Of a stretch of DNA of 64,000 nt, positions 1,172 to 61,700 are shown one piece after another. The notes beneath the pieces were generated by a model. That model saw only the letters and a list, made by a program, of their open reading frames with translations. It did not search any database and was not told the origin of the DNA. Numbering within the stretch: the stretch's first letter is position 1; the number at the start of each line of letters is the position of its first letter. The DNA is from Hexactinellida sp. DTS-2022. Taxonomy: Eukaryota > Porifera > Hexactinellida. The stretch lies in the NCBI GenBank assembly GCA_028753945.1, contig JAPNXP010000002.1, positions 3,472,001 through 3,536,000 on the forward strand, written 5' to 3'. The translations under genes and the position numbers were made by a program.

Positions 1172-4100
1172 CCCTGAGCTTTGAAGCGTGAAGTTGGGTA
1201 TATTTAAATCGAAAAGTCCGGAGAACAAGTGTGTGCTTGAAGGATCCTAGCAAAAACCAATGGAATGTGCGATTAACGTAAAGAATGAGAAGAACCTGGG
1301 TTATAAAAGTCAGTAGCATTGTATATAACAAAGAAGCAAGCTTAGTAAAGCAATACGGAATATATTATTACAAAAACCTTAACAACGAATTACTTCTTCA
1401 GGATATAGATAAGAACCACAGCCACCAATGAACAAGGAATAGTATAATGTAAGGTTGTAAAAACATGAGCTTTAAAGCGTGAAGTTGGGCATATTTAGAT
1501 CGAAAAGTCCGGAATGGATAAGTGTGTGTTTGAAGGACCCTAGCAAAAACCAATGGAATGTGCGATTAACGTTAAGAATGAGAAAGACCTGGGTTATAAA
1601 AGTGAGTAGCATTGTATATGACAAAGAAGCAAGCTTAGTACAGCAGTACGGAATATATTATTACAAAAACACAAGTAAAGAATGAAATCTTCTGCTGGAT
1701 ATAGATAAGAACAAGAGCCACCAATGAACAAGGAATAGTATAATGTAAGGTTGTAAAAACCTGAGCTTTGAAGCGTGAAGTTGGGTATATTTAGGTCGAA
1801 AAGTCCGGAGGGATAAGTGTGTGTTTGAAGGACCCTAGCAAAAACCAATGGAATGTGCGATTAACGTAAAAGAATGAGAAGAACCTGGGTTATAAAAGTG
1901 AGTAGTATTGTATATGACAAAGAAGCAAGCTTAGTACAGCAGTATGGAATATATTATTACAAAAACCCTAGCAAAGAATTAGTTTTCTGGATATAGATAA
2001 GAACCACAGCCACCAATTAACAAGGAATAGTATAATGTAAGGTTGTAAAAACCTGAGCTTTGAAAGCGTGAAGTTGGCTATATTTAGATCGAAAAGTCCG
2101 GAGGGATAAGTGTGTGTTTGAAGGACCCTAGCAAAAACCAATGGAATGTGCGATTAACGTATAAGAATGAGAAAGACCTGGGTTATAAAAGTGAGTAGTA
2201 TTGTATATGACAAAGAAGCAAGCTTAGTACAGCAGTATGGAATATATTATTACAAAAACCCTAGCAAAGAATTAGTTTTCTGGATATAGATAAGAACCAC
2301 AGCCACCAATTAACAAGGAATAGTATAATGTATGGTTGTAAAAACCTGAGCTTTGAAAGCGTGAAGTTGGCTATATTTAGATCGAAAAGTCCGGAGGGAT
2401 AAGTGTGTGTTTGAAGGACCCTAGCAAAAACCAATGGAATGTGCGATTAACGTATAAGAATGAGAAAGACCTGGGTTATAAAAGTGAGTAGTATTGTATA
2501 TGACAAAGAAGCAAGCTTAGTACAGCAGTACGGAATATATTATTACAAAAACACAAGCAAAGAATTACTTTCTGGATATAGATAAAACAAGAGCCACCAA
2601 TGAACAAGGAATAGTATAATGTAAGGATGTAAAAACCTGAGCTTTGAAGCTTGAAGTTGGGTATATTTAGATCTAAAAGTCCGGAGGGATAAGTGTGTGT
2701 TTGAAGGATCCTAGCAAAAACCAATGGAATGTGCGATTAACGGAAAGAATGAGAAGAACCTGGGTTATAAAAGTGAGTAGTATTGTATATGACAAAGAAG
2801 CAAGCTTAGTACAGCAGTACGGAATATATTATTACAAAAACCCTAGCAAAGAATTAGTTTTCTGGATATAGATAAGAACCACAGCCACCAATTAACAAGG
2901 AATAGTATAATGTAAGGTTGTAAAAACCTGAGCTTTGAAAGCGTGAAGTTGGCTATATTTAGATCGAAAAGTCCGGAGGGATAAGTGTGTGTTTGAAGGA
3001 TCCTAGCAAAAACCAATGGAATGTGCGATTAACGTATAAGAATGAGAAAGACCTGGGTTATAAAAGTGAGTAGTATTGTATATGACAAAGAAGCAAGCTT
3101 AGTACAGCAGTACGGAATATATTATTACAAAAACACAAGCAAAGAATTACTTTCTGGATATAGATAAAACAAGAGCCACCAATGAACAAGGAATAGTATA
3201 ATGTAAGGATGTAAAAACCTGAGCTTTGAAGCGTGAAGTTGGGTATATTTAGATCTAAAAGTTCGGAAGGGTAAAGTGTGTGTTTGAAGGATCCTAGCAA
3301 AAACCAATGGAATGTGCGATTAACGTAAAGAATTTGAAGAACCTGGGTTATAAAAGTCAGTAGCATTGTATATGACAAAGAAGCAAGCTTAGTAAAGCAA
3401 TACGGAATATATTTTTACAAAAACCTAGCAACGAATGACTTCTTCTGGATATAGATAAGAACCACAGAAACCAATGAACAAGGAATAGTATAAAGTAAGG
3501 TTGTAAAAACCTGAACTTTCAAGTGTGAAGTTGGGTATATTTAAATCGAAAAGTCCGGAGGGATAAGTGTGTGTTTGAAGGATCCTAGCAAAAACCAATG
3601 GAATGTGCGATTAACGTAAAGAATTTGAAGAACCTGGGTTATAAAAGTGAGTAGCATTGTATATGACAAAGAAGCAAGCTTAATAAAGCAATACGGAATA
3701 TATTATTACAAAAACCTTAACAATGAATTACTTCTTCAGGATATAGATAAGAACCACAGCCACCAATGAACAAGGAATAGTATAAAGTAAGGTTGTAAAA
3801 ACCTAAGCTTTGAAGAGTGAAGTTGGGTATATTTAGATCTAAAAGTCCGGAGAATAAGTGTGTGCTTGAAGGATCCTAGCAAAAACCAATGGAATGGGCG
3901 ATTAACGTAAGAATGTGAAGAACCTGGGTTATAAAGTCAGAAGCATTGTATATGACAAAGAAGCAAGCTTAGTAAAGCAATACGGAATATATTATTACAA
4001 AAACCTTAACAATGAATTACTTCTTCAGGATATAGATAAGAACCACAGCCACCAATGAACAAGGAATAGTATAATGTAAGGTTGTAAAACATGAGCTTTG

Positions 4101-6399
4101 AAGCGTGAAGTTGGGTATATTTAGGTCGAAAAGTCCGGAGGGATAAGTGTGTGTTTGAAGGATCCTAGCAAAGACCAATGGAATGTGCGATTAACGTAAG
4201 AATGAGAAGAACCTGGGTTATAAAAGTCAGTAGCATTGTATATGACAAAGAAGCAAGCTTAGTAAAGCAATACGGAATATATTATTACAAAAACCTTAAC
4301 AATGAATTACTTCTTCAGGATATAGATAAGAACCACAGCCACCAATGAACAAGGAATAGTATAATGTAAGGTTGTAAAAACATGAGCTTTGAAGCGTGAA
4401 GTTGGGTATATTTAGATCGAAAAGTCCGGAAGGATAAGTGTGTGCTTGAAGGATCCTAGCAAAAACCAATGGAATGTGCGATTAACGGAAAATGAGAAGA
4501 ACCTGGGTTATAAAAGTGAGTAGTATTGTATATGACAAAGAAGCAAGCTTAGTAAAGCAATACGGAATATATTATTACAAAAACCTTAACAATGAATTAC
4601 TTCTTCAGGATATAGATAAGAACCACAGCCATCAATGAACAAGGAATAGTATAATGTAAGGTTGTAAAAACATGAGCTTTGAAGCGTGAAGTTGGGTATA
4701 TTTAGATCGAAAAGTCCGGAAGGATAAGTGTGTGCTTGAAGGATCCTAGCAAAAACCAATGGAATGTGCGATTAACGTAAGAATGAGAAGAACCTGGGTT
4801 ATAAAAGTCAGTAGCATTGTATATGACAAAGAAGCAAGCTTAGTAAAGCAATACGGAATATATTATTACAAAAACCTTAACAATGAATTACTTCTTCAGG
4901 ATATAGATAAGAACCACAGCCACCAATGAACAAGGAATAGTATAATGTAAGGTTGTAAAAACATGAGCTTTGAAGCGTGAAGTTGGGTATATTTAGATCG
5001 AAAAGTCCGGAAGGATAAGTGTGTGCTTGAAGGATCCTAGCAAAAACCAATGGAATGTGCGATTAACGTAAGAATGAGAAGAACCTGGGTTATAAAAGTC
5101 AGTAGCATTGTATATGACAAAGAAGGAAGCTTAGTACATCAGTACGGAATATATTATTACAAAAACCCTAGCAACGAATTACTTTTCTGGATATAGATAA
5201 GAACCACAGACACCATTGAACAAGGAATAGTATAATGTAAGGTTGTAAAAACCTGAGCATTGAAGCGTGAAGTTGGGTATATTTAGATCGAAAAGTCCGG
5301 AAGGATAAGTGTGTGTTTGAAGGATCCTAGCAAAAACCAATGTAATGTGCGATTAACGGAAAATGAGAAGAACCTGGGAATTAAAAGTGAGTAGCATTGT
5401 ATATGACTTAGAAGAAAGCTTAGTAGAGCAGTATGGAAGAGATTAATACAAAAACCTTAACAACGAATGACTTCTTCTGGATATAGATAAGCACCATAGC
5501 CAACAATTAACAAGGGATACTATAATGTAAGGTTGTAAAAACATGAGCTTTGAAGCGTGAAGTTGGGTATATTTAGATCGAAAAGTCCGGAAGGATAAGT
5601 GTGTGCTTGAAGGATCCTAGCAAAAACCAATGGAATGTGCGATTAACGTAAAGAATGAGAAGAACCTGGGTTATAAAAGTCAGTAGCATTGTATATGACA
5701 AAGAAACAAGCTTAGTAAAGCAATACGGAAAATATTTTTACAAAAAACTAGCAACGAATGACTTCTTCAGAATATAGATAAGAACCACAGCCACCAATGA
5801 AGAAGGAATAGTATAATGTAAGGTTGTAAAAACATGAGCTTTGAAGCGTGAAGTTGGGTATATTTAGATCGAAAAGTCCGGAAGGATAAGTGTGTGTTTG
5901 AAGGATCCTAGCAAAAACCAATGGAATGTGCGATTAACGAAAAATGAGAAGAACCTGGGAAATAAAAGTGATTAGCATTGTATATGACTTAGAAGAAAGC
6001 TTAGAAGAGCAGTATGGAATAGATTAATACAAAAACCTTAACAACGAATGACTTCTTCTGGATATAGATAAGCACCATAGCCAACAATTAACAAGGAAAA
6101 CTATAATGTAAGGTTGTAAAAACATGAGCTTTGAAGCGTGAAGTTGGGTATATTTAGATCGAAAAGTCCGGAAGGATAAGTGTGTGTTTGAAGGATCCTA
6201 GCAAAAACCAATGGAATGTGCGATTAACGAAAAATGAGAAGAACCTGGGAAATAAAAGTGAGTAGCATTGTATATGACTTAGAAGAAAGCTTAGTAGAGC
6301 AGTATGGAATAGATTAATACAAAAACCTTAACAACGAATGACTTCTTCTGGATATAGATAAGCACCATAGCCAACAATTAACAAGGAATACTATAATGT

Positions 6400-9300
6400 A
6401 AGGTTGTAAAAACATGAGCTTTGAAGCGTGAAGTTGGGTATATTTAGATCGAAATGTCCGGAGGGATAAGTGTGTGTTTGAAGGATCCTAGCAAAAACCA
6501 ATGGAATGTGCGATTAACGGAAAAATGAGAAGAACCTGGGTTATAAAAGTGAGTAGCATTGTATATGACAAAGAAGCAAGCTTAATAAAGCAATACGGAA
6601 TATATTATTACAAAAACCTCAACAACGAATGACTTCTTCTGGATATAGATAAGCACCACAGCCAACAATTAACAAGGGATAGTAAAATGTAAGGTTGTAA
6701 AAATCTGAGCTTTGAAGCGTGAAGTTGGGTATATTTAGATCGAAAATTCCGGAGAGATAAGTATGTGTTTGATGGATCCTAGCAAAAACCAATGGAATGT
6801 GCGATTAACGTATAAGAATGAGAAAAACCTGGGAAATAAAAGTGAGTAGCATTGTATATGACTTAGAAGAAAGCTTAGTAGAGCAGTATGGAATAGATTA
6901 ATACAAAAACCCTAGTAACGAATTACTTCTTCTGGATATAGATAAGAACCACAGCACCAATGAACAAGGAATAGTATAATGTGAGGTTGTAAAACAAGAG
7001 CTTTGAAACGTGAAGTTGGGTATATTTAGATCGAAAAGTCCGGAAGGGATAAGTGTGTGCTTGAAGGATCCTAGCAAAAACCAATGGAATGTGCGATTAA
7101 CGTAAGAATGAGAAGAACCTGGGTTATAAAAGTCAGTAGCATTGTATATGACAAAGAAGCAAGCTTAGTAAAGCAATACGGAATATATTATTACAAAAAC
7201 CTTATCAATGAATTACTTCTTCAGGATATAGATAAGAACCACAGCCACCAATGAACAAGGAATAGTATAATGTAAGGTTGCAAAAACATGAGCTTTGAAG
7301 CGTGAAGTTGGGTATATTTAGATCGAAAAGTCCGGAAGGATAAGTGTGTGCTTGAAGGATCCTAGCAAAAACCAATGGAATGTGCGATTAACGTAAGAAT
7401 GAGAAGAACCTGGGTTATAAAAGTGAGTAGTATTGTATATGACAAAGAAGCAAGCTAAGTACATCAGTACGGAATATATTATTAAAAAAACCCTAGCAAC
7501 GAATTACTTTTCTGGATATAGATAAGAACCACAGCCACCATTGAACAAGGAATAGTATAATGTAAGGTTGTAAAAACCTGAGCTTTGAAGCGTGAAGTTG
7601 GGTATATTTAGGTCGAAAAGTCCGGAGAATAAGTGTGTGTTTGAAGGATCCTAGCAAAAACCAATGGAATGTGCAATTAACGTAAAGAATGAGAAGAACC
7701 TGGGTTAGAATAGTGAGTAGCATTGTATATGACAAAGAAGCAAGCTTAGTACATAAGTACGGAATATATTATTACAAAAACCCTAGCAACGAATTACTTT
7801 TCTGGATATAGATAAGAACCACAGACACCATTGAACAAGGAATAGTATAATGTAAGGTTGTAAAAACCTGAGCTTTGAAGCGTGAAGTTGGGTATATTTA
7901 GATCGAAAAGTCCGGAAGGATAAGTGTGTGTTTGAAGGATCCTAGCAAAAACCAATGGAATGTGCGATTAACGGAAAATGAGAAGAACCTGGGAAATAAA
8001 AGTGAGTAGCATTGTATATGACTTAGAAGAAAGCTTAGTAGAGCAGTATGGAAGAGATTAATACAAAAACCTTAACAACGAATGACTTCTTCTGGATATA
8101 GATAAGCACCATAGCCAACAATTAACAAGGAATACTATAATGTAAGGTTGTAAAAAGATGAGCTTTGAAGCGTGAAGTTGGGTATATTTAGATCGAAAAG
8201 TCCGGAAGGATAAGTGTGTGCTTGAAGGATCCTAGCAAAAACCAATGGAATGTGCGAGTAACGTAAAGAATGAGAAGAACCTGGGTTATAAAAGTCAGTA
8301 GCATTGTATATGACAAAGAAACAAGCTTAGTAAAGCAATACGGAATATTTTATTACAAAAACCTTAATAATGAATTACTTCTTCAGAATATAGATAAGAA
8401 CCACAGCCACCAATGAAGAAGGAATTTTATAATGTAAGGTTGTAAAAACCTGAGCTTTGAAGCGTGAAGTTGGGTATATTTAGATCGAAAAGTCCGGAAG
8501 GATAAGTGTGTGTTTGAAGGATCCTAGCAAAAACCAATGGAATGTGCGATTAACGAAAAATGAGAAGAACCTGGGAAATAAAAGTGAGTAGCATTGTATA
8601 TGACTTAGAAGAAAGCTTAGAAGAGCAGTATGGAATAGATTAATACAAAAACCTTAACAACGAATGACTTCTTCTGGATATAGATAAGCACCATAGCCAA
8701 CAATTAACTTAGAATACTATAATGTAAGGTTGTAAAAACATGAGCTTTGAAGCGTGAAGTTGGGTATATTTAGATCGAAAAGTCCGGAAGGATAAGTGTG
8801 TGTTTGAAGGATCCTAGCAAAAACCAATGGAATGTGCGATTAACGAAAAATGAGAAGAACCTGGGAAATAAAAGTGAGTAGCATTGTATATGACTTAGAA
8901 GAAAGCTTAGTAGAGCAGTATGGAATTGATTAATACAAAAACCTTAACAACGAATGACTTCTTCTGGATATAGATAAGCACCATAGCCAACAATTAACAA
9001 GGAATACTATAATGTAAGGATGTAAAAACATGAGCTTTGAAGCGTGAAGTTGGGTATATTTAGATCGAAAAGTCCGGAGGGATAAGTGTGTGTTTGAAGG
9101 ATCCTAGCAAAAACCAATGGAATGTGCGATTAACGGAAAAATGAGAAGAACCTGGGTTATAAAAGTGAGTAGCATTGTATATGACAAAGAAGCAAGCTTA
9201 ATAAAGCAATACGGAATATATTATTACAAAAACCTCAACAACGAATGACTTCTTCTGGATATAGATAAGCACCACAGCCAACAATTAACAAGGGATAGTA

Positions 9301-9598
9301 AAATGTAAGGTTGTAAAAATCTGAGCTTTGAAGCGTGAAGTTGGGTATATTTAGATCGAAAATTCCGGAGAGATAAGTATGTGTTTGATGGATCCTAGCA
9401 AAAACCAATGGAATGTGCGATTAACGTATAAGAATGAGAAAAACCTGGGAAATAAAAGTGAGTAGCATTGTATATGACTTAGAAGAAAGCTTAGTAGAGC
9501 AGTATGGAATAGATTAATACAAAAACCCTAGTAACGAATTACTTCTTCTGGATATAGATAAGAACCACAGCACCAATGAACAAGGAATAGTATAATGT
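6400..9598. repeat. Higher-order satellite block, copy 1 (3199 bp, 11 units)
   Basis: This block and the next are near identical at a constant offset of 3199 bp. A rare variant GAAATGTCCG occurs at 6451 and 9650, and CGAAAATTCC at 6741 and 9940. Within the block the CGAAAATTCC variant also appears 2616 bp later (9357), so the 11-unit block is itself a 9-unit block plus a 2-unit (583 bp) duplication. Confidence 0.85.
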
Positions 9599-12500
9599 AA
9601 GGATGTAAAAACATGAGCTTTGAAGCGTGAAGTTGGGTATATTTAGATCGAAATGTCCGGAGGGATAAGTGTGTGTTTGAAGGATCCTAGCAAAAACCAA
9701 TGGAATGTGCGATTAACGGAAAAATGAGAAGAACCTGGGTTATAAAAGTGAGTAGCATTGTATATGACAAAGAAGCAAGCTTAATAAAGCAATACGGAAT
9801 ATATTATTACAAAAACCTCAACAACGAATGACTTCTTCTGGATATAGATAAGCACCACAGCCAACAATTAACAAGGGATAGTAAAATGTAAGGTTGTAAA
9901 AATCTGAGCTTTGAAGCGTGAAGTTGGGTATATTTAGATCGAAAATTCCGGAGAGATAAGTATGTGTTTGATGGATCCTAGCAAAAACCAATGGAATGTG
10001 CGATTAACGTATAAGAATGAGAAAAACCTGGGAAATAAAAGTGAGTAGCATTGTATATGACTTAGAAGAAAGCTTAGTAGAGCAGTATGGAATAGATTAA
10101 TACAAAAACCCTAGTAACGAATTACTTCTTCTGGATATAGATAAGAACCACAGCACCAATGAACAAGGAATAGTATAATGTGAGGTTGTAAAACAAGAGC
10201 TTTGAAACGTGAAGTTGGGTATATTTAGATCGAAAAGTCCGGAAGGGATAAGTGTGTGCTTGAAGGATCCTAGCAAAAACCAATGGAATGTGCGATTAAC
10301 GTAAGAATGAGAAGAACCTGGGTTATAAAAGTCAGTAGCATTGTATATGACAAAGAAGCAAGCTTAGTAAAGCAATACGGAATATATTATTACAAAAACC
10401 TTATCAATGAATTACTTCTTCAGGATATAGATAAGAACCACAGCCACCAATGAACAAGGAATAGTATAATGTAAGGTTGCAAAAACATGAGCTTTGAAGC
10501 GTGAAGTTGGGTATATTTAGATCGAAAAGTCCGGAAGGATAAGTGTGTGCTTGAAGGATCCTAGCAAAAACCAATGGAATGTGCGATTAACGTAAGAATG
10601 AGAAGAACCTGGGTTATAAAAGTGAGTAGTATTGTATATGACAAAGAAGCAAGCTAAGTACATCAGTACGGAATATATTATTAAAAAAACCCTAGCAACG
10701 AATTACTTTTCTGGATATAGATAAGAACCACAGCCACCATTGAACAAGGAATAGTATAATGTAAGGTTGTAAAAACCTGAGCTTTGAAGCGTGAAGTTGG
10801 GTATATTTAGGTCGAAAAGTCCGGAGAATAAGTGTGTGTTTGAAGGATCCTAGCAAAAACCAATGGAATGTGCAATTAACGTAAAGAATGAGAAGAACCT
10901 GGGTTAGAATAGTGAGTAGCATTGTATATGACAAAGAAGCAAGCTTAGTACATAAGTACGGAATATATTATTACAAAAACCCTAGCAACGAATTACTTTT
11001 CTGGATATAGATAAGAACCACAGACACCATTGAACAAGGAATAGTATAATGTAAGGTTGTAAAAACCTGAGCTTTGAAGCGTGAAGTTGGGTATATTTAG
11101 ATCGAAAAGTCCGGAAGGATAAGTGTGTGTTTGAAGGATCCTAGCAAAAACCAATGGAATGTGCGATTAACGGAAAATGAGAAGAACCTGGGAAATAAAA
11201 GTGAGTAGCATTGTATATGACTTAGAAGAAAGCTTAGTAGAGCAGTATGGAAGAGATTAATACAAAAACCTTAACAACGAATGACTTCTTCTGGATATAG
11301 ATAAGCACCATAGCCAACAATTAACAAGGAATACTATAATGTAAGGTTGTAAAAAGATGAGCTTTGAAGCGTGAAGTTGGGTATATTTAGATCGAAAAGT
11401 CCGGAAGGATAAGTGTGTGCTTGAAGGATCCTAGCAAAAACCAATGGAATGTGCGAGTAACGTAAAGAATGAGAAGAACCTGGGTTATAAAAGTCAGTAG
11501 CATTGTATATGACAAAGAAACAAGCTTAGTAAAGCAATACGGAATATTTTATTACAAAAACCTTAATAATGAATTACTTCTTCAGAATATAGATAAGAAC
11601 CACAGCCACCAATGAAGAAGGAATTTTATAATGTAAGGTTGTAAAAACCTGAGCTTTGAAGCGTGAAGTTGGGTATATTTAGATCGAAAAGTCCGGAAGG
11701 ATAAGTGTGTGTTTGAAGGATCCTAGCAAAAACCAATGGAATGTGCGATTAACGAAAAATGAGAAGAACCTGGGAAATAAAAGTGAGTAGCATTGTATAT
11801 GACTTAGAAGAAAGCTTAGAAGAGCAGTATGGAATAGATTAATACAAAAACCTTAACAACGAATGACTTCTTCTGGATATAGATAAGCACCATAGCCAAC
11901 AATTAACTTAGAATACTATAATGTAAGGTTGTAAAAACATGAGCTTTGAAGCGTGAAGTTGGGTATATTTAGATCGAAAAGTCCGGAAGGATAAGTGTGT
12001 GTTTGAAGGATCCTAGCAAAAACCAATGGAATGTGCGATTAACGAAAAATGAGAAGAACCTGGGAAATAAAAGTGAGTAGCATTGTATATGACTTAGAAG
12101 AAAGCTTAGTAGAGCAGTATGGAATTGATTAATACAAAAACCTTAACAACGAATGACTTCTTCTGGATATAGATAAGCACCATAGCCAACAATTAACAAG
12201 GAATACTATAATGTAAGGATGTAAAAACATGAGCTTTGAAGCGTGAAGTTGGGTATATTTAGATCGAAAAGTCCGGAGGGATAAGTGTGTGTTTGAAGGA
12301 TCCTAGCAAAAACCAATGGAATGTGCGATTAACGGAAAAATGAGAAGAACCTGGGTTATAAAAGTGAGTAGGATTGTATATGACAAAGAAGCAAGCTTAA
12401 TAAAGCAATACGGAATATATTATTACAAAAACCTCAACAACGAATGACTTCTTCTGGATATAGATAAGCACCACAGCCAACAATTAACAAGGGATAGTAA

Positions 12501-12797
12501 AATGTAAGGTTGTAAAAATCTGAGCTTTGAAGCGTGAAGTTGGGTATATTTAGATCGAAAATTCCGGAGAGATAAGTATGTGTTTGATGGATCCTAGCAA
12601 AAACCAATGGAATGTGCGATTAACGTATAAGAATGAGAAAAACCTGGGAAATAAAAGTGAGTAGCATTGTATATGACTTAGAAGAAAGCTTAGTAGAGCA
12701 GTATGGAATAGATTAATACAAAAACCCTAGTAACGAATTACTTCTTCTGGATATAGATAAGAACCACAGCACCAATGAACAAGGAATAGTATAATGT
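9599..12797. repeat. Higher-order satellite block, copy 2
   Basis: This is a tandem copy of the preceding block. The 80-codon minus-strand frames at 7493-7735 and 10692-10934 translate identically, which shows how little the two copies have diverged compared with adjacent 291-bp units. Past about 12800 the array resumes as the start of a further partial copy and then diverges after about 13060. Confidence 0.85.
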
Positions 12798-14130
12798 GAG
12801 GTTGTAAAACCAGAGCTTTGAAACGTGAAGTTGGGTATATTTAGATCGAAAAGTCCGGAAGGGATAAGTGTGTGCTTGAAGGATCCTAGCAAAAACCAAT
12901 GGAATGTGCGATTAACGTAAGAATGAGAAGAACCTGGGTTATAAAAGTCAGTAGCATTGTATATGACAAAGAAGCAAGCTTAGTAAAGCAATACGGAATA
13001 TATTATTACAAAAACCTTAACAATGAATTACTTCTTCAGGATATAGATAAGAACCACAGCCACCAATGAACAAGGAATAGTATAAAGTAAGGTTGTAAAA
13101 ACCGAAACTTTGAATCGTGAAGTTGGGTATATTTAGATCAAAAGTCCGGAGGGATAAGAGTGTGTTTGAAGGATCCTTGCAAAAACCAATGGAATGTGCG
13201 ATTAACGTAAAGAATGTGAAGAACCTGGGTTATATAAGTCAGTAGCATTGTATATGACAAAGAAGCAAGCTTAATACAGCAGCACGGAATATATTAATAG
13301 AAAAACAATAATAACGAAAGACTTCTTCTGGATATAGATAAGCACCACAGCCAACAATTAACAAGGAATAGTATAATGTAAGGTTGCAAAAACCTGAGCT
13401 TTGAAGCGTGAAGTTGGGTATATTTAGATCGAAAATTCCGGAGAGATAAGTAAGTGTTTGATGCATCCTAGCAAAAACCAATGGAATGTGCGATCAACGT
13501 ATAAGAATGAGAAAAACCTGGGAAATAAAAGAGAGTAGCATTGTATATGACTTAGAAGAAAGCTTAGTAGAGCAGTACGGAATATATTAATACAAAAACC
13601 TTAACAACGAATGACTTCTTCTGGATATCGATAAGAACCACAGCTACCAATGAACAAGGAATAGTATAATGTGAGGTTGTAAAACCTGAGCTTTGAAGCG
13701 TGAAGTTGGGTATATTTAGATCGAAAAGTCCGGAAGGATAAGTGTGTGTTTGAAGGATCCTAGCAAAAACCAATGGAATGTGCGATTAACGGAAAAATGA
13801 GAAGAACCTGGGTTATAAAAGTGAGTAGCATTGTATATGACAAAGAAGCAAGCTTAGTACAGCAGTATGGAATATATTATTACAAAAACCTTAACAACGA
13901 ATGAGAAAAACCTGGGAAATAAAAGTGAGTAGTATTGTATATGACAAAGAAGCAAGCTTAGTACAGCAGCACGGAATATATTAATAGAAAAACCCTAGCA
14001 ACGAATTACTTCTTCTGGATATAGATAAGAACCAGAGCCACCAATGAACAAGGAATAGTATAATGTAAGGTTGTAAAAACCTGAGCTTTGAAGCGTGAAG
14101 TATGGTTCATTTAGATGGAAAAGTCCGTAG

Positions 14131-14441: not shown

Positions 14442-14449
14442 GTATACAG

Positions 14450-14676
14450 GGGGACGCTGCATTAGTTCGAATTTTGAAGGTTGTCAATAGTTCGAATTTC
14501 AATGGTTGTCATTAGTTCGACTCACTTTTTTGGAGGTTGTCATTAGTTCGACTCGGTTTTACTAGGGTTGTCATTAGTTCGACTCGATTTTACTATAGTT
14601 GTCATTAGTTCGACTCGATTTTACTAGGGTTGTCATTAGATCGACTCGATTTTACTTGGGTTGTCATTAGTTCGAC
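14450..14676 (+). repeat. Left foldback arm, proximal tandem repeats
   Basis: About seven ~30-bp units, each containing GTCATTAGTTCGACTC or a variant and separated by short variable spacers (TTTTTTGGAG, GGTTTTACTAGG, GATTTTACTAGG). The outermost two units use TTCGAATTT in place of TTCGACTC, and the outermost units of the right arm do the same. Confidence 0.9.
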
Positions 14677-15462
14677 CATGGCCTACTTAATATACTGCTA
14701 TATATGTTCCCGAGAAGGCCAAGAAAGAAGAAGGCCAGTTTCTAATTTTCATTTTAGGATAAACTATGACTCCTATTGTTGTTATTTGCATTGTATATGG
14801 GGTAATCAACCATTGCGAGTCCATTAGAACCACTTTTGAGAATCTCAGATTTGTGGTTACGCTATTTAGGCGCCATTTAATGATGACACCACAAATATAC
14901 AAAAATATAAAATTTTAGTCTAAAGAACTGCGAGAAAATGAAATAATTTGCTAATATACTTCGAATACATTTTCCGGATATATAATGATAATGAATATAT
15001 ATAAACCAGCAATTATATACGTTTTATGTACGAAAATAGTAAGTTTTAATTCGAATACTACTTGTATTTTAGCATGTGGTTGCTTTATAATTTTTAATTT
15101 TTATTAGAATGTCGCCATTTTGTGATTTAGTAGCCTTTGGGGTATGAAATATATCCCTATTTAGTATTCCTATTATAAAATTATTAGAAAGTAGGAAGAA
15201 ACAGAAATTTATGATATTTGAAAAAAATTCATTTTACCATAAATTGTTACCGTCATCATTAAATTGCGCCTAAACAGCTTAACCACAAATCTGAGATTCT
15301 CAAAAGTGGTTCTAATGGACTCGCAATGGTTGATTACCCCATATACAATGCAAATAACAACAATAGGAGGCATAGTTTATCCTAAAATGAAAATTAGAAA
15401 CTGGCCTTCTTCTTTCTTGGCCTTCTCGGGAACATATATAGCCGTATATTAAGTAGGCCATG
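14677..15462. mobile_element. Nested 786-bp long-TIR element with 7-bp TSD
   Basis: It is inserted in the left foldback arm. GTTCGAC is present at 14670-14676 and again at 15463-15469, so the arm repeat unit is duplicated as the TSD. The termini are 211-bp inverted repeats (14677-14887 and 15252-15462) that differ at only a handful of positions and begin CATGGCCTACTTAATATAC. The ~364-bp interior is AT-rich and noncoding. The short frames over the TIRs (for example 15264-15452 and its mirror) are the same DNA read in opposite directions, not genes. The family is not recognised; a 7-bp TSD is known for Galileo. Confidence 0.85.
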
Positions 15463-15469
15463 GTTCGAC

Positions 15470-15965
15470 TCGATTTTACTAGAGTTGTCATTAGTTCGAC
15501 TCGATTTACTAGGGTTGTCATTAGTTCGACTCGATTTACTAGGGTTGTCATTAGTTCGACTCACTTTTTAGGAGGTTGTCATTAGTTCGACTCTCTTTTT
15601 AGGAGGTTGTCATTAGTTCGACTCACTTTTTAGGAGGTTGTCATTAGTTCGACTCTCTTTTTAGGAGGTTGTCATTAGTTTGACTCACTTTTTAGGGGGT
15701 TGTCATTAGTTCGACTCACTTTTTAGGAGGTTGTCATTAGTTCGACTCTTTTTTAGGAGATTGTCATTAGTTCGACTCTCTTTTAGGGAGGTTGTCATTA
15801 GTTCGACTCTCTTTTTAGGAGGTTGTTATTAGTTCGACTCTCTTTTAGGGAGGTTGTCATTAGTTCGACTCTCTTTTTAGGAGGTTGTTATTAGTTCGAC
15901 TCTCTTTTAGGGAGGTTGTCATTAGTTCGACTCTCTTTTAGGGAGGTTGTCATTAGTTCGACTCG
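15470..15965 (+). repeat. Left foldback arm, distal tandem repeats
   Basis: About seventeen ~29-30-bp units of GTTGTCATTAGTTCGACTC with spacers of the CTTTTTAGGAG and GATTTACTAGG types. It is one array with 14450-14676, split by the nested element. Confidence 0.9.
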
Positions 15966-16169
15966 TCAGAAACCGAAGAAGAATTACCTACCAACATTTA
16001 TAGTAATTGTGTCATTTGCTTTACTCCTCGAACGACAACTTGGATATTTTTACCATGCAGGCATGCACACTGCTGCACTGAATGTCACAAAACAATTGAG
16101 GAGCTTGGGCGACCTTGTTCCATCTGCCGTACACCAATAGAAAATAGTTTCCAAATCTTCACAAATTAA
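15966..16169 (+). CDS. RING-finger coding segment without a start codon
   Basis: The frame beginning TCA at 15966 is open for 67 codons to TAA at 16167-16169 and encodes a complete C3HC4 RING finger. The metal ligands are C15 and C18 (CVIC), C31 and H33 (LPCRH), C37 and C40 (CTEC), and C51 and C54 (PCSIC), followed by RTPIE. An acidic SETEEEL stretch precedes it. RING fingers of this type bind two zinc ions and usually recruit E2 enzymes in ubiquitin ligases. There is no ATG, and an in-frame TAG lies just upstream in the repeat arm. The segment therefore looks like a terminal exon or a captured gene fragment in the centre of the foldback element. An AG that could act as a splice acceptor lies at 15968-15969 but has no clear pyrimidine tract. 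The longer 74-codon frame over this place is a different, meaningless frame. Confidence 0.65.
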   Translation, partial: SETEEELPTNIYSNCVICFTPRTTTWIFLPCRHAHCCTECHKTIEELGRPCSICRTPIENSFQIFTN

Positions 16170-16380
16170 GTCATTTATCATATTGTGTTTCCTTATTTAT
16201 CATATTGTGTTTCCTTTGTGTTTTCCTCATTCTTATACTTTTGGTTATATTATCTAATTAATAACAACCTACCTAAAACCGAAGTTGACTAATTCATTAA
16301 AAAAGGGCCAATATTATGAATAATTAATTAATTATTCTATAGTTAATGACTCGTACAATATTCAGGAATTAGTCAAAAAC
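16170..16380. other. Noncoding remainder of the foldback centre
   Basis: AT-rich DNA with a direct repeat TTTATCATATTGTGTTTCC at about 16175-16213. No open frame was found. It could hold the 3' untranslated part of the captured RING segment, but no AATAAA signal stands out. Confidence 0.4.
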
Positions 16381-17125
16381 ACGAGTCGAACTAATGACAA
16401 CCTCCTAAAAAAGAGTCGAACTAATGACAACCTCCTAAAAAAGAGTCGAACTAATGACAACCTCCTAAAAAGTGAGTCGAACTAATGACAACCCCCTAAA
16501 AAGTGAGTCGAACTAATGACAACCCTAGTAAATCGAGTCGAACTAATGACAACCCTGAGAAACCGAGTCGAACTAATGACACTCTAGTAAAACCGAGTCG
16601 AACTAATGACACTCTAGTAAAACCGAGTCGAACTAATGACACTCTAGTAAAAACCGAGTCGAACTAATGACAACCTCCTAAAAAAGAGTCGAACTAATGA
16701 CAACCTCCTAAAAAAGAGTCGAACTAATGACAACCTCCTAAAAAGTGAGTCGAACTAATGACAACCCCCTAAAAAGTGAGTCGAACTAATGACAACCCTA
16801 GTAAATCGAGTCGAACTAATGACAACCCTGAGAAACCGAGTCGAACTAATGACACTCTAGTAAAACCGAGTCGAACTAATGACACTCTAGTAAAACCGAG
16901 TCGAACTAATGACACTCTAGTAAAAACCGAGTCGAACTAATGACAACCTCCTAAAAATCGAGTCGAACTAATGACAACCATAGTAAATCGAGTCGAACTA
17001 ATGACAACCCTAGTAAAACCGAGTCGAACTAATGACACTCTAGTAAAAACCGAGTCGAACTAATGACAACCTTTGAAATTCGAACTAATGACAACCCTCA
17101 GAATTCGAACTAATGTATGCACCCC
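16381..17125 (-). repeat. Right foldback arm, tandem repeats in reverse orientation
   Basis: About 24 units of GAGTCGAACTAATGACAAC, the reverse complement of the left-arm unit. It has its own higher-order duplication of about 273 bp: the variant AACCCTGAGAAACCGAG is at 16551 and again at 16824 within matching blocks. Confidence 0.9.
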
Positions 17126-17159
17126 GTATACAGGTCTGGCCAGGGCATCTGCTACGGAG

Positions 17160-22538: not shown

Positions 22539-25034
22539 TTAAGTACACTTGTCACAAGTGAAAGATCCAGCTGAGACAATCTCGTATACTACATCAGCGC
22601 AGTAGCAGTGGATCCAGTCTGAGCAGACATCACAGCATACCCATTGCGACTCAATCTTCTTCCCGATTCGTCTGAGTGCTACTGGGTCCGGCTCTCTCTT
22701 ATCGCAAATCGCACAAAGGGTGGTCGACTCGTCTGAACTACTAGACTCATCACCAGAAGACGGACTAGAGACAGAAGGAGTACTACGCTCTTTGAGTTTT
22801 CTCTTCACGCCAGTAGAAACTCCTCTCGCCTGTCTGCCCCGTCCTCGGGCCTGCCTACCTCGGGCCTGCCTACCTCGGGCCTGCCTACCTCGGGCCTGCC
22901 TACCTCTCTTGCTTTGCGTGCTCTCAGCTCCATACTGTCCTCCTCTATAGCTACCCCCGCCTTCTGATTTCAGCAGTGCCTTTTCTCGGTGCTGCTTGAC
23001 TAGCTTCATTCTTCTTCGTCGTCGTTGGAAATTAGATTTAATTTTGGCAGTACGGGAATATTGCAACTTATGAATACGGTCGATCATTGATTGGTAGGCA
23101 TGTCGCGATGGAGACAGTCCAAGGTCGTACATAATCCCGAAGAGTGGCAGTTCTCCTTCATTGAAACTCAGAACAGAGATGGCAGTGCTAATCCTGATAG
23201 ATTGAGGAGACACGTGCTTGTTCTTGGGGCAGAGGCACCATATCATGTTGTGCAGGGATTCGTTTGCATTCTGAGTTAGACCTAGCGTCAGATGGCTGCA
23301 GAACTCAGTCGTGGCATATTTGTTGAAGGCCTCGCGTACCTTCTGGATTTCAATAGGTGTAAAGGTGGTCAAAGTAGCTGGTGCTGTGGAACTAGATGGT
23401 TTATTCCAACGACACCATGTGTTCTCTCCGGTAGGACAGCCAGAATGAATTCCTGCCGCATGATCGAGGAGAATATGTAGATCTCGTGACAGCTTATCAG
23501 GTGTTGTCCCACGGTTCTGTAAGATAACAGTGGAATAGTTCGCGGCGATATAGTCAGCTTTCCATTCGGTGAGTTTGTGTTGTACATAGGTTTTTGTCTT
23601 CGTATTAGGCTTGATTTTCTTTAGGTTCTTCTTCAGACGCTTGGCAACATGTGTCAGACATTCTTCTTTTCGCACTTTCACAAGAGGGTAGGGATCAAGT
23701 GTTGTCACGTGCTGAAAGGCCTTAGAGTCTCCGTCACCAACAAACACGGAATACACCAAGCGGTTCTTCTCCAAGCTGCGACCCCAGATCCTCTCGGCAG
23801 CTTCGGGCTCCATTGCTTGGGAAGAACCTGTGTAGTTTCTGTTGCAGTTCGGCTTATGACGCTCTAGCCACTTCTCGTACTCGGATGGTTTGTCTTTCTG
23901 TTTCTCTTCTGTCCATATAGAGCACTTCTCGCATAGTCGACTCAAGATCTCGTAGTCCAGTACTTTCTTGGTGGAGGTAGATATGGCAGCACCGAAACCT
24001 ATATTGGAGTAGAAACTCCTGGTCTTCCAGGAGCTGTCGAAACTAATTGTTACATTGATAGCATTAGGCTCGGGAGATGGTTCTGAATCTACCTTCTGGT
24101 GTAGCTGATCAGCAGCTTCAGACATCGAAAGATTAACCGCTTTTTTTGTAACACCTTCAAGACGGATGGCATATCGAGATGGTATTGATTGAACTGGTGG
24201 TGGCATATCAAATATTGTAGCAATTTTATGTAAATCACGCCATGACATACCGGTTGAATGTGTGGCCAGTACCGACCTCATTGTAACCTCATTCATGTCT
24301 CTGCTGGTAAACGGGACATTGACACAAGTATGGTGGCTGGGCATGTCCAGAGAACGTGAGGAAGGGAAGGTTGCGTGTTCTGAATGGCACGTCTGGCACT
24401 TGACTCTAAAGAATGTCTGCCAGCCGTGCTGCCATCTTTCTTCGTACAAGACGAGAGGACCATTGCATTTGTTGCATTTAAAGGTAGAGAATACCTCAGC
24501 TAAAATGCCTACATCAAGGATCCTCATTCCAGTTGGTTTAGAAGCGGTCCTTAAAGAACTATCCTGAGATGTTTTAAATTCGACTGGTCGAGAATGGGTA
24601 TATGGTGGAACGCGGAATTTAGAGGCATATCCTCGAATCGGGTGGGCTTTGAAGAATTTGTGTTTCTTCGGTTTGCTTATCTTGGAAATTGGGTCTGCAA
24701 TCTTGACTGATGGAAATTCTTTGGTATCAGGATTGCCAACAGTGTGTCTTCTGGCGTAGATTCGCTTGCGAGGGCGACCCCCACGTCTCCGGTTTCGAAA
24801 ACTGTCGGTGGCCTGAGATTCTATGTCAAGTGAAAAAAAGGACTCCGAAATCCCCGGTGTTGATGGAGGTATAGATGTTTGGGATGATGTTGGCGCAGGT
24901 GCTTGTGAAGCGATGGTAGCAACGGGGGGCTCGGTATCTGAAGGAAAGCTGTCCTGATCTGTTGAATTAGATTTGGGAATGAAATCATCAGGCTCATTGA
25001 AAATCTCTCCATCGAAGCTGGATTCGCTCGACAT
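22539..25034 (-). CDS. Mutator-like transposase with AT-hook and PHD finger, intact
   Basis: This is an 831-residue single-exon frame. Residues 1-80 are acidic and Ser/Pro-rich. An AT-hook-like RRRGGRPRKR lies at 82-91. A zinc ribbon (C187/C190, C213/C216) follows TGMRILDVGILAEVF. The catalytic RNase H-like core has D333 in SFDSSWK, D434 in FVGDGDSK and E592 in TQNANESLHN. These motifs, with EECLTHVAKRL and YTGSSQAME, match the animal Mutator-like transposase domain family, whose usual first block is FDGTW. After a basic region (671-690), a five-fold RGRQA repeat (710-738) precedes an acidic Ser-rich linker and a C-terminal PHD finger (C774, C777, C801, C804, H809, C812, C827, C830). Such a finger would bind histone tails. 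The ATG is the first in the frame. No terminal inverted repeats were found, so it may be an active element or a domesticated gene. A broken homologue lies at 44582-46989. Confidence 0.88.
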   Translation of the reverse strand: MSSESSFDGEIFNEPDDFIPKSNSTDQDSFPSDTEPPVATIASQAPAPTSSQTSIPPSTPGISESFFSLDIESQATDSFRNRRRGGRPRKRIYARRHTVGNPDTKEFPSVKIADPISKISKPKKHKFFKAHPIRGYASKFRVPPYTHSRPVEFKTSQDSSLRTASKPTGMRILDVGILAEVFSTFKCNKCNGPLVLYEERWQHGWQTFFRVKCQTCHSEHATFPSSRSLDMPSHHTCVNVPFTSRDMNEVTMRSVLATHSTGMSWRDLHKIATIFDMPPPVQSIPSRYAIRLEGVTKKAVNLSMSEAADQLHQKVDSEPSPEPNAINVTISFDSSWKTRSFYSNIGFGAAISTSTKKVLDYEILSRLCEKCSIWTEEKQKDKPSEYEKWLERHKPNCNRNYTGSSQAMEPEAAERIWGRSLEKNRLVYSVFVGDGDSKAFQHVTTLDPYPLVKVRKEECLTHVAKRLKKNLKKIKPNTKTKTYVQHKLTEWKADYIAANYSTVILQNRGTTPDKLSRDLHILLDHAAGIHSGCPTGENTWCRWNKPSSSTAPATLTTFTPIEIQKVREAFNKYATTEFCSHLTLGLTQNANESLHNMIWCLCPKNKHVSPQSIRISTAISVLSFNEGELPLFGIMYDLGLSPSRHAYQSMIDRIHKLQYSRTAKIKSNFQRRRRRMKLVKQHREKALLKSEGGGSYRGGQYGAESTQSKRGRQARGRQARGRQARGRQARGRGRQARGVSTGVKRKLKERSTPSVSSPSSGDESSSSDESTTLCAICDKREPDPVALRRIGKKIESQWVCCDVCSDWIHCYCADVVYEIVSAGSFTCDKCT
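22815..22920 (-). repeat. 15-bp in-frame minisatellite encoding RGRQA
   Basis: The unit CTACCTCGGGCCTGC (plus strand) is repeated in tandem inside the transposase gene and reads RGRQA on the coding strand. It is much more GC-rich than the surrounding DNA. The count is a multiple of three bases per unit, so it can vary without breaking the frame. Confidence 0.85.
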
Positions 25035-25212
25035 TATTAGTAAAGCTAATATTTAAGAAAATATAATAATAAATATAAAGAATGAATACGGTAATACTCT
25101 GAAAAAGCACCGTGAATTGAAATGCGCCGGGATGTTATGTATTATTTGTCAACCTATTCAGTGAGGATATCATTGGTTTGGAGATTTCTGAATACAGTAA
25201 CTGGGTTCACTA
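25035..25212. other. 5' flank of the transposase gene
   Basis: AT-rich. ACGGTAATACTCTGAAAAAGC at about 25089-25109 resembles the terminus of the hairpin at 25213-25288, so a second copy or an end of the same family may lie here. No clear promoter element was recognised. Confidence 0.35.
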
Positions 25213-51300: not shown

Positions 51301-51399
51301 ACGATTCGTAACAATTGGCTGAATCTAAAAAATGAAAACCAAACTTTTGTGTATCCAAAGTTTGAAGATTTTTCACCTAACTGAACTCGATTTCTCTTA

Positions 51400-52703
51400 A
51401 CCTACAAACAGCTTCTTTTGATGATATTCGAACGATTTATAAGTTGGAACAAAACAGTATCGCGAAACTTGCACCGCGTCTTACAGCAAAAGCATGTTGG
51501 CCTTCCAAACTAGAACGGCAGAATGTTAAATTGGCTCTCCGCATATTTGATGACTCTACTAGTGCAGCTCTAAAGATTTCTAATGAACCCCGACTCGAAA
51601 GGTTTAAACACCAGACTGCAGAATTCATTGATATAATTGTTATGGTGTGGAAGATTTTTAATGTCAATAGGTCGAACAAAGACGTTCGTTTGAATGACGA
51701 ATTTTCTAAACAACTAGTACTAAATGATCCTAGATTTGGGTTAATTACTCGCATTGTTAACTGGCTATATACTTGGAGATCCTTACCAGGAAAACAAGGT
51801 AAATTAACACCCCAGACTTTTACAAGCTTCAAACATACTTGTGAAGCGCTACCCATTTTAGTCAATCACTTAACTTCTCAATGCGGATTTTCATATGTAC
51901 TCACCTATTTCCTCCAGACAGATCCACTAGAACACCACTTCGGGTTGTATAGAATGATGTCTGGATCAAACTATCACGTCTCATATGGCCAAATACTAGA
52001 AACTGAACGACGGCTCAAGATATCTAGTATATTGAAACTGTTTTCCCAGGAACCCTCTTCAAAAGAAAATAATCTGGGTTCGTTTATCAAATCTTTCTCA
52101 CCGAAAGAAGACGTCTGTGATTCTCCTATCATAGATTTAGCACCATTTCTCTCAAAGCTACAAGATATTTCTACTGTAATCATTGGTTGCGAAACTCTTC
52201 AATCTTTGACATTTATTGCAGGTTATTGCGTGCATCAATACTTGAAGAACAAGAAATTAACGCATTGTCGTGTCTGCCAAGATTTATTAATTATTGATAA
52301 GTACTTATTGTTTGATCCAGAAGAAGCTAAATTATATAAGCTCATTGAAATCTTGGACAGAGGATCATTGAAGTGGCCTTCAAATTCGGTCTTAGAGTCG
52401 ATCATTATTGTTTGGAGAATTCTAATCACTCTAAGACAAGATATTGATGTCTGGACAAGATTTGTCACTGAAAAACCTCGGCAAATATTAATTGATCTGT
52501 CTATTAGAATCCTTGAGAATGACTCTAGTGAACCCTGGCGCAACAGATGCTCAATTTGTAATACTGATGGTTGGGAGATCATACGTAAATTGTTTTTTGT
52601 AGCCTCAAACTGTCTAATCTCCAACATGGTTAAAAATTATAATTCACATGTATCCTCAAGAGGAGAAGATAATCGTAAATTAAAGAAACTAAGAGTTCAG
52701 TAA
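51400..52703 (+). pseudogene. P/THAP9-type transposase, 5'-truncated
   Basis: An open frame runs to TAA at 52701-52703. The first ATG (51444) gives 419 residues, but homology-like sequence begins upstream (FDDIRTIYKLEQNS, about 51417), so that ATG is not the true start. Family marks: KLAPRLTAKACWP near the start, ALRIFDDSTSAAL, DPLEHHFGLYRMMSG at residues 160-174 (the signature around the last catalytic acidic residue of P elements and THAP9), SLTFIAGYCVHQYL at 254-267, and two cysteine pairs (C274/C277 and C370/C373). P-type transposases have an N-terminal THAP DNA-binding domain, a GTP-binding region and a split RNase H fold. The THAP domain and first catalytic residues are absent here, replaced by retroelement and foldback debris. 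The remaining frame has no stops, so it decayed recently or is retained. The protein as it stands cannot be a complete transposase. Confidence 0.8.
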
Positions 52704-58751: not shown

Positions 58752-61700
58752 ATGTCTGATGGTTACAGAAGAAAACATGAATCGGGACATACCAAAAGAA
58801 AGGAAAGAGAATACAAAGAAGAAGGGATACGAAAACAGGAGGGCTCATTGTGAAAATTCATTACCCACAATGATACAACCACTGACTGTCCTGGCTCTAC
58901 TAGTCTTTGTTCTGAAGCAGAATTATTCTCAGGAATTTGTTCACAAGACATTGATATGTCTGTTGATAATGTATCAGGATATCTTGGTGTTCGACAGGTG
59001 AGTGGTGCTGAATTTGAGATTGCTCAAACTGTACCACCCGACAATGATGACATGCAATGCCATAGCAGTGATCCTGTTGAATGGGACGTGAATATAGATA
59101 TTATCCAATACTATGCAGTCCATATTCCGTCACAAAACTTCGATGCAGACTTTTCCAAAAGTGGCCGTCAGTTTGGTGACAAAAAGCGATTTGTTCAGAA
59201 AGAGTACTTCAGGCTTCCCGTCCCTGAGATTCTGGCCGCAGGACCCCTAGCAAAAATATTCTGTTTAATATTGATTAATCTGATTTAACATATTAGCTAT
59301 CTTATTGTAACAGAGAGCTAGTCTCTAGCTATCCTACTTTTCTTATTTCAACGATTATTGTGTAATCGGAACCAAAAGGCTTCTATGAGAAAACAATATT
59401 GAACTTCAAATTAGGCGATTTGTATAGATCAATACACTATACTTTGAAATGCGTTGATTTGAAGTTCATTTGAGCCTATACTAACTTAGTACATACTATT
59501 GCACATTACGTGACAGACTCACTTTATTGAATTAATGTTTACTTTCAATAATACGGGAGTGACTACACAGTGGGCAAAAACAGGTACATCAGCGGTCATA
59601 GGTATTTAGGTGCAAGATAGAGGTATAAAAGGTATTAGTTACCTATGGGTTATCACCTATAACAAATTGATTGGGACCAAACAAAATTTGGTATGGCTTC
59701 TATTTTTTAAGTTGTGATGACTTAGCAAAAATGAGATAAATCTAATTCCGCAAATATTTTGATAATTATCATCGATCTAGTTGGACTATTCATACTAGTA
59801 GTATATGTCGATATGTAGAATACAAATGAGCATATTACATGTTATTTTCCGCTTTATAACTGATTAAAATCATGTCCTATGTGAGAAACAACAAATTAAT
59901 AATTACATCAGAATTCAGAAAATATTAATTATTCTGTTTTGGGATTTGAAATTAAGATACTATCTGTTCGGATACTTCACTGGTAATATCGATGCGTGTT
60001 TCTAGAACAATAAATGCACCAATACTAATTACATTATTCATTTTACATTGATTTAACGAATAAAGTTCAATAAACACATTAGATATTACATATTTTACAT
60101 TTTATACTTAACCACAAGTGTTTGAATATTTAATAAACAACTCAATTTTTAGAAATTTTAGTCCGATGGACAGTTTAATAATGTATGTAACATTTTTGGG
60201 TCAAATGATGTCAATTAGTGACTGGTTACATCTTAAAGAGAATTTTCTATAGTTTAAGATAGCATAGGTGTAATAATTGACCATATCTTACCATATAAGG
60301 TCGGGCACAAAATATACAAAAAGGATCATCGAAAACGAAATAAAATAAATGATACTGAATTCGGAAACCATAAGAGATGTACTAAGTATAACACATATCT
60401 GGAAACTAGAAGAAAAACTGATACTAGTATGCTTCAAATGCTCTAGAAAGCTTATTTTATGTTATAAATTTAGCACTTGAAACTTGATACTATTTGAAAA
60501 CTCGAGTTTTATCTTGGAAACCATAGTTTATGATCGTAATTCAAATTATAATATCTTGACTTCCAGATGGAATTTGATAAAATAAATTATATTTCTATGG
60601 TCCTTGACTATCCTAGCAACACATATTTAAGAAATTGAGCTTAAACACAGACCTCAAAATTTGAGCTATGACCGCTGATTTGCCCACTGTGGACTAGTTG
60701 GAATTTTTTCAATATCATGACATTTCGAAATTACTCAAGCATTCCTATTGGTTTCAAAGTTTATATCGCTAATCGAAGTCTGTCACGTAATGTAAACTAA
60801 TATGGACTAAGTTAGTATGGGCTCAAATCAACTTCAAATCAACGCATTTCAAATAATAGTGCATTGATCTATACTATTCGCCTGATTTGAGTTCAATATT
60901 GTTTTCTCATAGAAGCCTTTTGGTTCCAATTACACAATAATTGTTGAAATAAGAAAAGTAGGATAGCTAGAGACTAGCTCTCTGTTACAATAAGATAGCT
61001 AATATGTTAAATTAGATTAATCAATATTAAACAGAATATTTTTGCTAGGGGTCCTATGCCAGAATATCAGGGACGGGAAGCCTTCAGCAGACACTTGACA
61101 AATGGTGAGATTGTTTCACGTGACTGGTTGATATATTCTCCATCAACTGGAAGAGTGTTTTGTTATGTTTGCAAGCTATTTTCTAATGACCTACCTAGTC
61201 AATTTATAACTGGATTTGATGACTGGAAGAATGCCATTGTCAGAGTATCATCGCATGAGTATTCAAAAGATCACTTTGGTGCAGTCGATCACAAATCGCA
61301 GTGTCTTAAAGACAATAGAATTGACAAAGAGCTTGAAAATGTCAGACAAAAGGCATTTTCATACTGGTCTGAGGTTCTAAAAAGAATTGTAGCTGTAGTA
61401 AAATTCCTTTCTGAGCGAGGTTTAGGTTTTCGAGGTGATAATGGACTCATAGGCAGTCCCAACAATGGGAATTCTCTTGGGTGTATCGAATTAGTGGCTG
61501 AATTTGATCCTTTTATTCGAGAACATATTGAAAAATTCAAGAATCCTGGAAAAGGAAAAGTGTGCTACCTCTCTTCGACTATTTGCAACGAATTTATTAC
61601 TATTTTGGGATTAAAAGTTAAGGAAAAGATTATTACAGAAATCAAAGATTCAAAGTACTACTTAGTAAGTATTGATTCAACACCTGATGTTAGCCACATT

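Follow-up and report, generated by a model that had tools for sequence, protein, structure and literature searches.

The RING finger at the centre of a foldback element in the window (the whole 64,000-nucleotide stretch analysed here) points to a parent family of transposons found elsewhere in the same genome. We conclude that the element is very probably a non-autonomous, internally deleted foldback of the Mutator-like (MULE) superfamily, in whose family the full-length members encode a transposase of about 540 aa built of a FLYWCH-like region, a DDE region, a linker and a RING. The window copy by itself is ordinary, a dead-end deletion derivative. The original prediction had left two readings side by side, an exon captured from a host or viral RING gene, or a RING protein that regularly belongs to the element family; it is the second that agrees with the results presented below, with the RING as the native C-terminus of the family's transposase.

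The foldback element and its deletion junction

The features of the element are listed in Table 1. A foldback with a perfect target site duplication (TSD) around the RING had been predicted, and this was confirmed by the 8-bp duplication flanking the element, inside which the RING is central. Each arm is built of tandem repeats of 30-31 bp, and the left array holds a nested insertion of 788 bp, with inverted arms of about 240 bp that are 93% complementary, whose ends CCATGGCC/GGCCATGG and possible 5-bp TSD (TTCGA) were read by eye; this insertion is not part of the MULE. Near the foldback, positions 1173-13902 of the window are occupied by a tandem array with a 290-bp unit in 43.8 copies.

Table 1. 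Coordinates of the foldback element and its parts in the window
Feature	Position	Strand	Remarks
Foldback element, MULE-type	14450-17125		Inverted arms and TSD; termini GGGGACGCTGCATTAG / GGGGTGCATACATTAG
Left TSD	14442..14449	.	GTATACAG, same letters as 17126-17133
Left foldback arm	14450..15964	.	TIR end GGGGACGCTGCATTAG, then 31-bp tandem repeats, nested insertion inside
Nested inverted-repeat (MITE-like) insertion	14676..15463	.	Inverted-repeat detection; ends and TSD by eye; limits approximate
Deletion junction	15965..15966	+	Last array repeat (...GACTCGT) to acidic-linker codons (GTCAGAAACC...); 2-bp GT microhomology
Transposase C-terminus remnant (RING stub)	15966..16169	+	Linker end SETEEE, C3HC4 RING, tail FQIFTN, stop TAA
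3' untranslated segment and right TIR inner unique part	16170..16376	+	TIR part 16253-16376
Right foldback arm	16377..17125	.	Inverted 30-31-bp tandem repeats, CCCC at end
Right TSD	17126..17133	.	GTATACAG, perfect 8-bp pair with left

The origin of the window copy is documented by three sister copies (L029, L030 and L031), which have arrays, termini and centre in common with it and which its centre (411 bp as query) matches end to end at 92-96% DNA identity. Between the same arms, L030 and L031 have about 1.7-1.8 kb of mostly decayed transposase, and L029 has additional sequence inside its far arm. The left array of L030 reads ...GTTCGACTCGTGTTTT and its transposase reads ...GATGTGTCAGAAACC, while the junction of the window copy reads ...GTTCGACTCGTCAGAAACC; both parents of the junction are thus found in L030, the left one being seen also in L031 and the right one in L029. 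In L030 coordinates, about 1.76 kb between the left array and the linker codons are missing from the window copy, whose junction falls inside the transposase coding sequence. An internal deletion of this length has joined the arm repeats directly to the linker codons, with the RING stub remaining, and copies deleted in this manner may move in trans once an intact transposase binds the 31-bp repeats of their arms.

The stub translates into 67 open codons followed by a stop. Its match to the Pfam model zf-C3HC4_3 (PF13920), with an E-value of 3.1e-11, means that it is no chance motif, and the predicted 67-codon frame with eight C3HC4 ligands is therefore a genuine RING, all ligands being kept in the spacing C-x2-C-x12-C-x-H-x3-C-x2-C-x10-C-x2-C. 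Its closest solved relatives by sequence include the RINGs of MDM2, CGRRF1, MUL1, MGRN1 and the IAPs, and an AlphaFold model of the 67 residues built without an alignment had a mean pLDDT of 60.6, too low for a fold search. The absence of an ATG was likewise borne out, as the frame, which opens just 3 codons upstream of 15966, contains no Met. What had to be corrected is the description of PCSICR as a conserved motif: the family form is C-P-x-C-R, and the window version departs from it as one of the only two among 44 open RINGs without Pro after the seventh ligand.

A function of the stub itself, for example as a small expressed RING protein or through a dominant-negative effect, has in its favour that the frame is still open and that all eight ligands are present, but we regard it as most improbable. 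Besides the missing start codon and the loss of the E2-contact Pro, a comparison of substitutions between copies, which the original prediction had proposed, gave no synonymous excess: against the three sisters the stub differs by 4-7 non-synonymous and 1-2 synonymous changes, about the neutral ratio. The sisters among themselves also show near-neutral figures (1-4 non-synonymous to 0-1 synonymous), so that neutral change is not a property of the window copy alone. Since the adjoining non-coding segment is conserved to the same degree (97.6-99.0% identical to the three sisters), there is no sign of selection on the stub, and a functional stub was rejected on account of the near-neutral changes and the lack of a start codon.

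RING copies in the genome and the full-length transposase

A genome search with the RING segment, also suggested at the outset, was run against the genome from which the window comes (18 contigs, 112.4 Mb); of 521 candidates, at least 150, one of them the window, were scored as matches, all with E-values of 2e-13 or below. The RING is therefore present at no fewer than 149 places besides the window, the sister foldback copies among them. A non-random set of 60 loci was taken, 20 for their closeness to the window copy, the presence of arrays or the length of their open frames and 40 by score rank; one locus (L033), picked for its arrays, has no detectable RING, and the RING counts rest on the other 59, which are the best-scoring, longest or array-bearing of the 149 other matches. 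Directly upstream of the RING and on the same strand, a transposase core of at least 100 aa was found in 56 of these 59 loci and one of at least 300 aa in 47. Of the remaining three, two (L060 and L077) have no more than the end of the transposase left in front of the RING, and L081 retains 88 aa of the core.

Eight loci (L039-L046) have a single open frame of 539-571 aa, counted from stop to stop, with all eight RING ligands, and in each the order is FLYWCH-like region, MULE DDE region, acidic linker and RING; a ninth (L047, 536 aa) is open with one RING ligand lost. All seven long ORFs scanned combine PF10551 (MULE), above its cut-off with E-values of 4e-8 to 7e-14, and the PF13920 RING in one ORF, and the D-D-E motifs are visible in the alignment as FDGTF, SDWE and NN(G/A/S)(A/S)ES. 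FLYWCH was matched in four of the seven, always under its curated cut-off (E-values of 3e-4 to 5e-3), and the other Pfam matches of the RING transposases were sub-threshold ones to ZSWIM and SRA. The linker that joins the DDE region to the RING is acidic, with a charge of -6 to -9, in a protein whose N-terminal part and DDE region are basic. A search of the same genome for MULE sequences gave at least 150 scored matches among 961 candidates.

When the eight ORFs were compared with each other (28 pairs), the median amino-acid identity was 0.54 for the N-terminal part, 0.58 for the DDE part, 0.30 for the linker and 0.62 for the RING. The corresponding median dN/dS values, for which only pairs with finite dS were used, were 0.191 (13 pairs), 0.149 (6), 0.675 (22) and 0.163 (18), ratios that are rough because dS is near saturation and the subsets of pairs differ. 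Within these limits, constraint on the RING appears similar to that on the DDE part, and the linker is not so constrained. The 35 of 946 RING pairs with dS of 0.1-1.0, which are not independent of each other, had dN/dS values of 0.13-0.47, with a median of 0.28. Identities of core and RING were correlated across the eight ORFs (Mantel r 0.54, p 0.002), a pattern such as would be expected of joint descent.

The union of the two parts is old, since the RING also stands at the end of distant relatives. Among 13 C-termini of relatives with core identities of 38-62%, a complete RING was seen by eye in ten (L090-L099), including near-copies of each other (L091, L092 and L094; L097 and L099), and nine of these ten (L091-L099), at 38-47% core identity, have the C-P-[IM]-C-R end and a short hydrophobic tail. 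In L089 the RING frame breaks ahead of the last ligand pair, and L101 has a broken RING remnant. The thirteenth, L100 (C18:1565040-1565480), is a 522-aa open transposase that has lost the RING and whose frame enters a short tandem repeat, so that a RING-less copy exists naturally; as another, neighbouring MULE frame at L035 also terminates without a RING, the domain is not universal among the MULEs of this genome.

The assignment to the MULE superfamily rests on the DDE transposase recognised by PF10551 and on the TSDs, whose lengths of 8 bp in the window, L033 and L034 and 9 bp in L031, as read by eye, lie within the 8-11 bp typical of MULEs; in L029 and L032 the duplication is imperfect (7 of 8 bp matching), and in L030 and L038 it was located at one end only. 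The family has the architecture of a foldback, with long inverted arms that consist of tandem repeats and enclose a centre that is short or varies: inverted repeats were found in 19 of the 20 loci L029-L048, being absent in L035 and just 83 bp long in L040, and arrays with a 30-32 bp period, one or more per locus, in all 20. This period persists in those loci, as in the window (14504-17072), though the sequence of the unit diverges to near chance, its similarity to the window unit being 0.50-0.57 in several loci against a shuffled mean of 0.47. As 31 bp corresponds to about three turns of DNA, a reason for the constant period may be that the transposase binds in phase, once in about every three turns of the helix.

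These results bear on two other accounts of how a RING came to lie inside a foldback. That MULEs are reported with host gene fragments, according to the accessible parts of two papers (PMC6446971; PMC5225508), and that the RING is placed exactly between the arms without an ATG would suit the Pack-MULE-like transduplication of a host or viral exon, but we hold such a capture to be very unlikely and rejected it, since a transposase core precedes the RING in nearly all the loci examined and the window junction lies within transposase coding sequence. Moreover, the RING is in frame with a DDE transposase in the eight open ORFs and follows the transposase even in relatives with 38-47% core identity; no independent host parent gene was seen among the 59 RING loci examined, and the non-coding centre flanking the stub is common to the sister copies too. 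Searches for relatives of the transposase gave 13 pattern matches in IMG/VR viral contigs and 43 in GTDB genome contigs, none of which was confirmed, in collections from which records near the window's genome were possibly excluded. Less probable still, to the point of being negligible, is a Galileo or P-type foldback to which the RING was added later. THAP- and P-like sequences exist elsewhere in the genome (L042, by eye) and the window contains a TNP-like domain, but the transposase that shares RING, termini and arms with the element is a PF10551 MULE with 8-9 bp TSDs, and the Pfam matches of the RING transposases (MULE, RING-type, FLYWCH) include no P-type or THAP domain, for which reason this origin was rejected as well.

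Other sequences were recorded in passing. The window contains a fragment of a TNP-like GTP-binding insertion domain at 51381-52703 (+) and pieces of a hAT transposase (DUF4371, Dimer_Tnp_hAT) at 61011-63127 (+). Domain searches of the genome gave 12 homeodomain matches and seven BIR-domain matches (C5 and C9), with a tandem cluster of five at C5:4489675-4500492 that has open frames of up to 798 aa. Chitin_bind_4, wnt and Fungal_trans had no match in the genome, nulls that do not prove absence, and the canonical telomere repeat was not seen by eye in four 300-bp contig ends.

Possible function of the RING

In dimeric RING E3 ligases, the type represented by MDM2 and the IAPs, the tail of the RING, the E2-contact Pro and the linchpin Arg all matter. 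We examined these positions in 44 open RINGs, i.e., those of 61 sequences that fit the ligand pattern, a selection that biases the residue counts upward: a hydrophobic residue at C1+2 and the linchpin Arg after the last ligand are present in all 44, the Pro after C7 in 42 and a hydrophobic tail in 43, and in the full-length ORFs P514 and R517 are invariant (8/8). The residues of the family are therefore those that an active dimeric RING E3 should have, which favours a ubiquitin ligase; the window copy lacks the Pro. Judging from these residues, there is about an even chance that the RING of the full-length transposase acts as an E3 ligase. In the intact protein it would then work as a dimeric E3 of the IAP/MDM2 class and modify either the transposase that carries it or chromatin proteins in the vicinity, by analogy with the RING of RAG1, and transposition might be controlled, for example, through autoubiquitination or the ubiquitination of local chromatin.

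A cross-brace finger at the end of a transposase could instead be a DNA- or histone-binding module, an explanation that we consider rather unlikely, though with precedents. According to the part of the source available, the C-terminal cross-brace fingers of PiggyBac and PiggyMac bind transposon-end DNA or, weakly, histone H3 (PMC8086355), respectively, and Rehavkus elements are tabulated with a PHD finger (PMC6446971). The RINGs studied here, by contrast, have retained the E2-contact Pro, the linchpin Arg and the tail, and the sequences that they match are the RINGs of MDM2, the IAPs, MUL1 and MGRN1. In addition, their charge is near neutral (median +0.8, range -2.0 to +3.9 in the 44 RINGs) and they lie behind an acidic linker; a charge near neutral does not speak for DNA binding. 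A ligase thus agrees better with the residues of the family than a binding module does.

Relation to known elements

Foldback MULEs are already known, and RING-bearing MULEs have been mentioned in passing, namely Ghost of Myzus cerasi and MuDR-37_Pi of Phytophthora, in PMC6446971, the only one among the open-access papers listed (outside Repbase) in which RING and MULE were found together. Ghost resembles the window family in that a RING finger accompanies the MULE; however, its RING is encoded by an ORF of its own (420 bp), in a single truncated copy for which no TIRs or TSDs were found (PMC6446971), whereas in the window family the RING is fused to the C-terminus of the transposase, and many of the copies have TIRs and TSDs. 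For MuDR-37_Pi the same source offers only the table note 'C3HC4 ring finger' (PMC6446971). Among the papers so listed, no MULE was seen whose transposase is fused at its C-terminus to a conserved RING and which also has TIRs and TSDs.

In its architecture the family comes close to two groups of foldback MULEs. Muta1, described as a 'type2 Foldback', and related MULEs of Aedes aegypti have DDE transposases of 416-554 aa, with an N-terminal FLYWCH-type finger in 13 of 14 families, and share 8-9 bp TSDs, long TIRs of subterminal tandem repeats and many derivatives with the window family, but their subterminal repeats are 9-15 bp long and not about 31 bp, and the main text of the paper never uses the word RING (PMC5225508). 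Tm1 of root-knot nematodes is likewise a Mutator/foldback element with composite tandem-repeat TIRs, TSDs of 8-10 bp and derivatives with other contents, one of them with a nested element, from which the window family differs by the length of the repeat (13-15 bp in Tm1); the term RING is absent from the main text of the paper (PMC3169594).

Rehavkus elements are tabulated with a Mutator-like transposase, a PHD finger and a C-terminal minisatellite in the accessible part of PMC6446971. The RING family is not of this group, as it matches PF10551 and not PF20700 and has a RING and not a PHD finger. The window has a separate open frame of 837 aa at 22539-25052 (-) that matches the Mutator-like transposase PF20700 with an E-value of 1e-62 and has, near its C-terminus, a PHD finger below threshold (E 0.0015), as well as a 15-bp minisatellite within the coding sequence (22843-22906); this frame resembles Rehavkus as tabulated there (PMC6446971), and fits it better than the RING family does.

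RING-bearing transposases are of interest because the RING of RAG1 has ubiquitin ligase activity. RAG1 and the RING-bearing Chapaev/Transib proteins are, like the transposase described here, recombinases of transposase type with a RING, but theirs is N-terminal and their transposase superfamily is another, according to the accessible text of a 2015 paper, in which RAG1 and two Chapaev subgroups are the carriers of the RING and no other known transposable elements have RING/Chapa domains (PMC4411706). The core of the window family is that of a MULE, with no match to a RAG1-type Pfam model, and membership in RAG1/Transib/Chapaev was rejected.

Here a superfamily other than RAG1/Chapaev carries a RING, at the opposite end of the protein. 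For the biology of these transposons, we tentatively propose, as a possibility somewhat short of an even chance, that a large MULE lineage, independently of RAG1/Chapaev, gained a standing C-terminal RING E3 that would control transposition together with the helically phased 31-bp repeats. Because the RING is recurrent in this genome and conserved about like the catalytic part, a ligase purpose could be tested by a simple excision assay. More generally, a foldback with a seemingly 'captured' gene fragment can be a deletion derivative whose parent family lies elsewhere in the genome.
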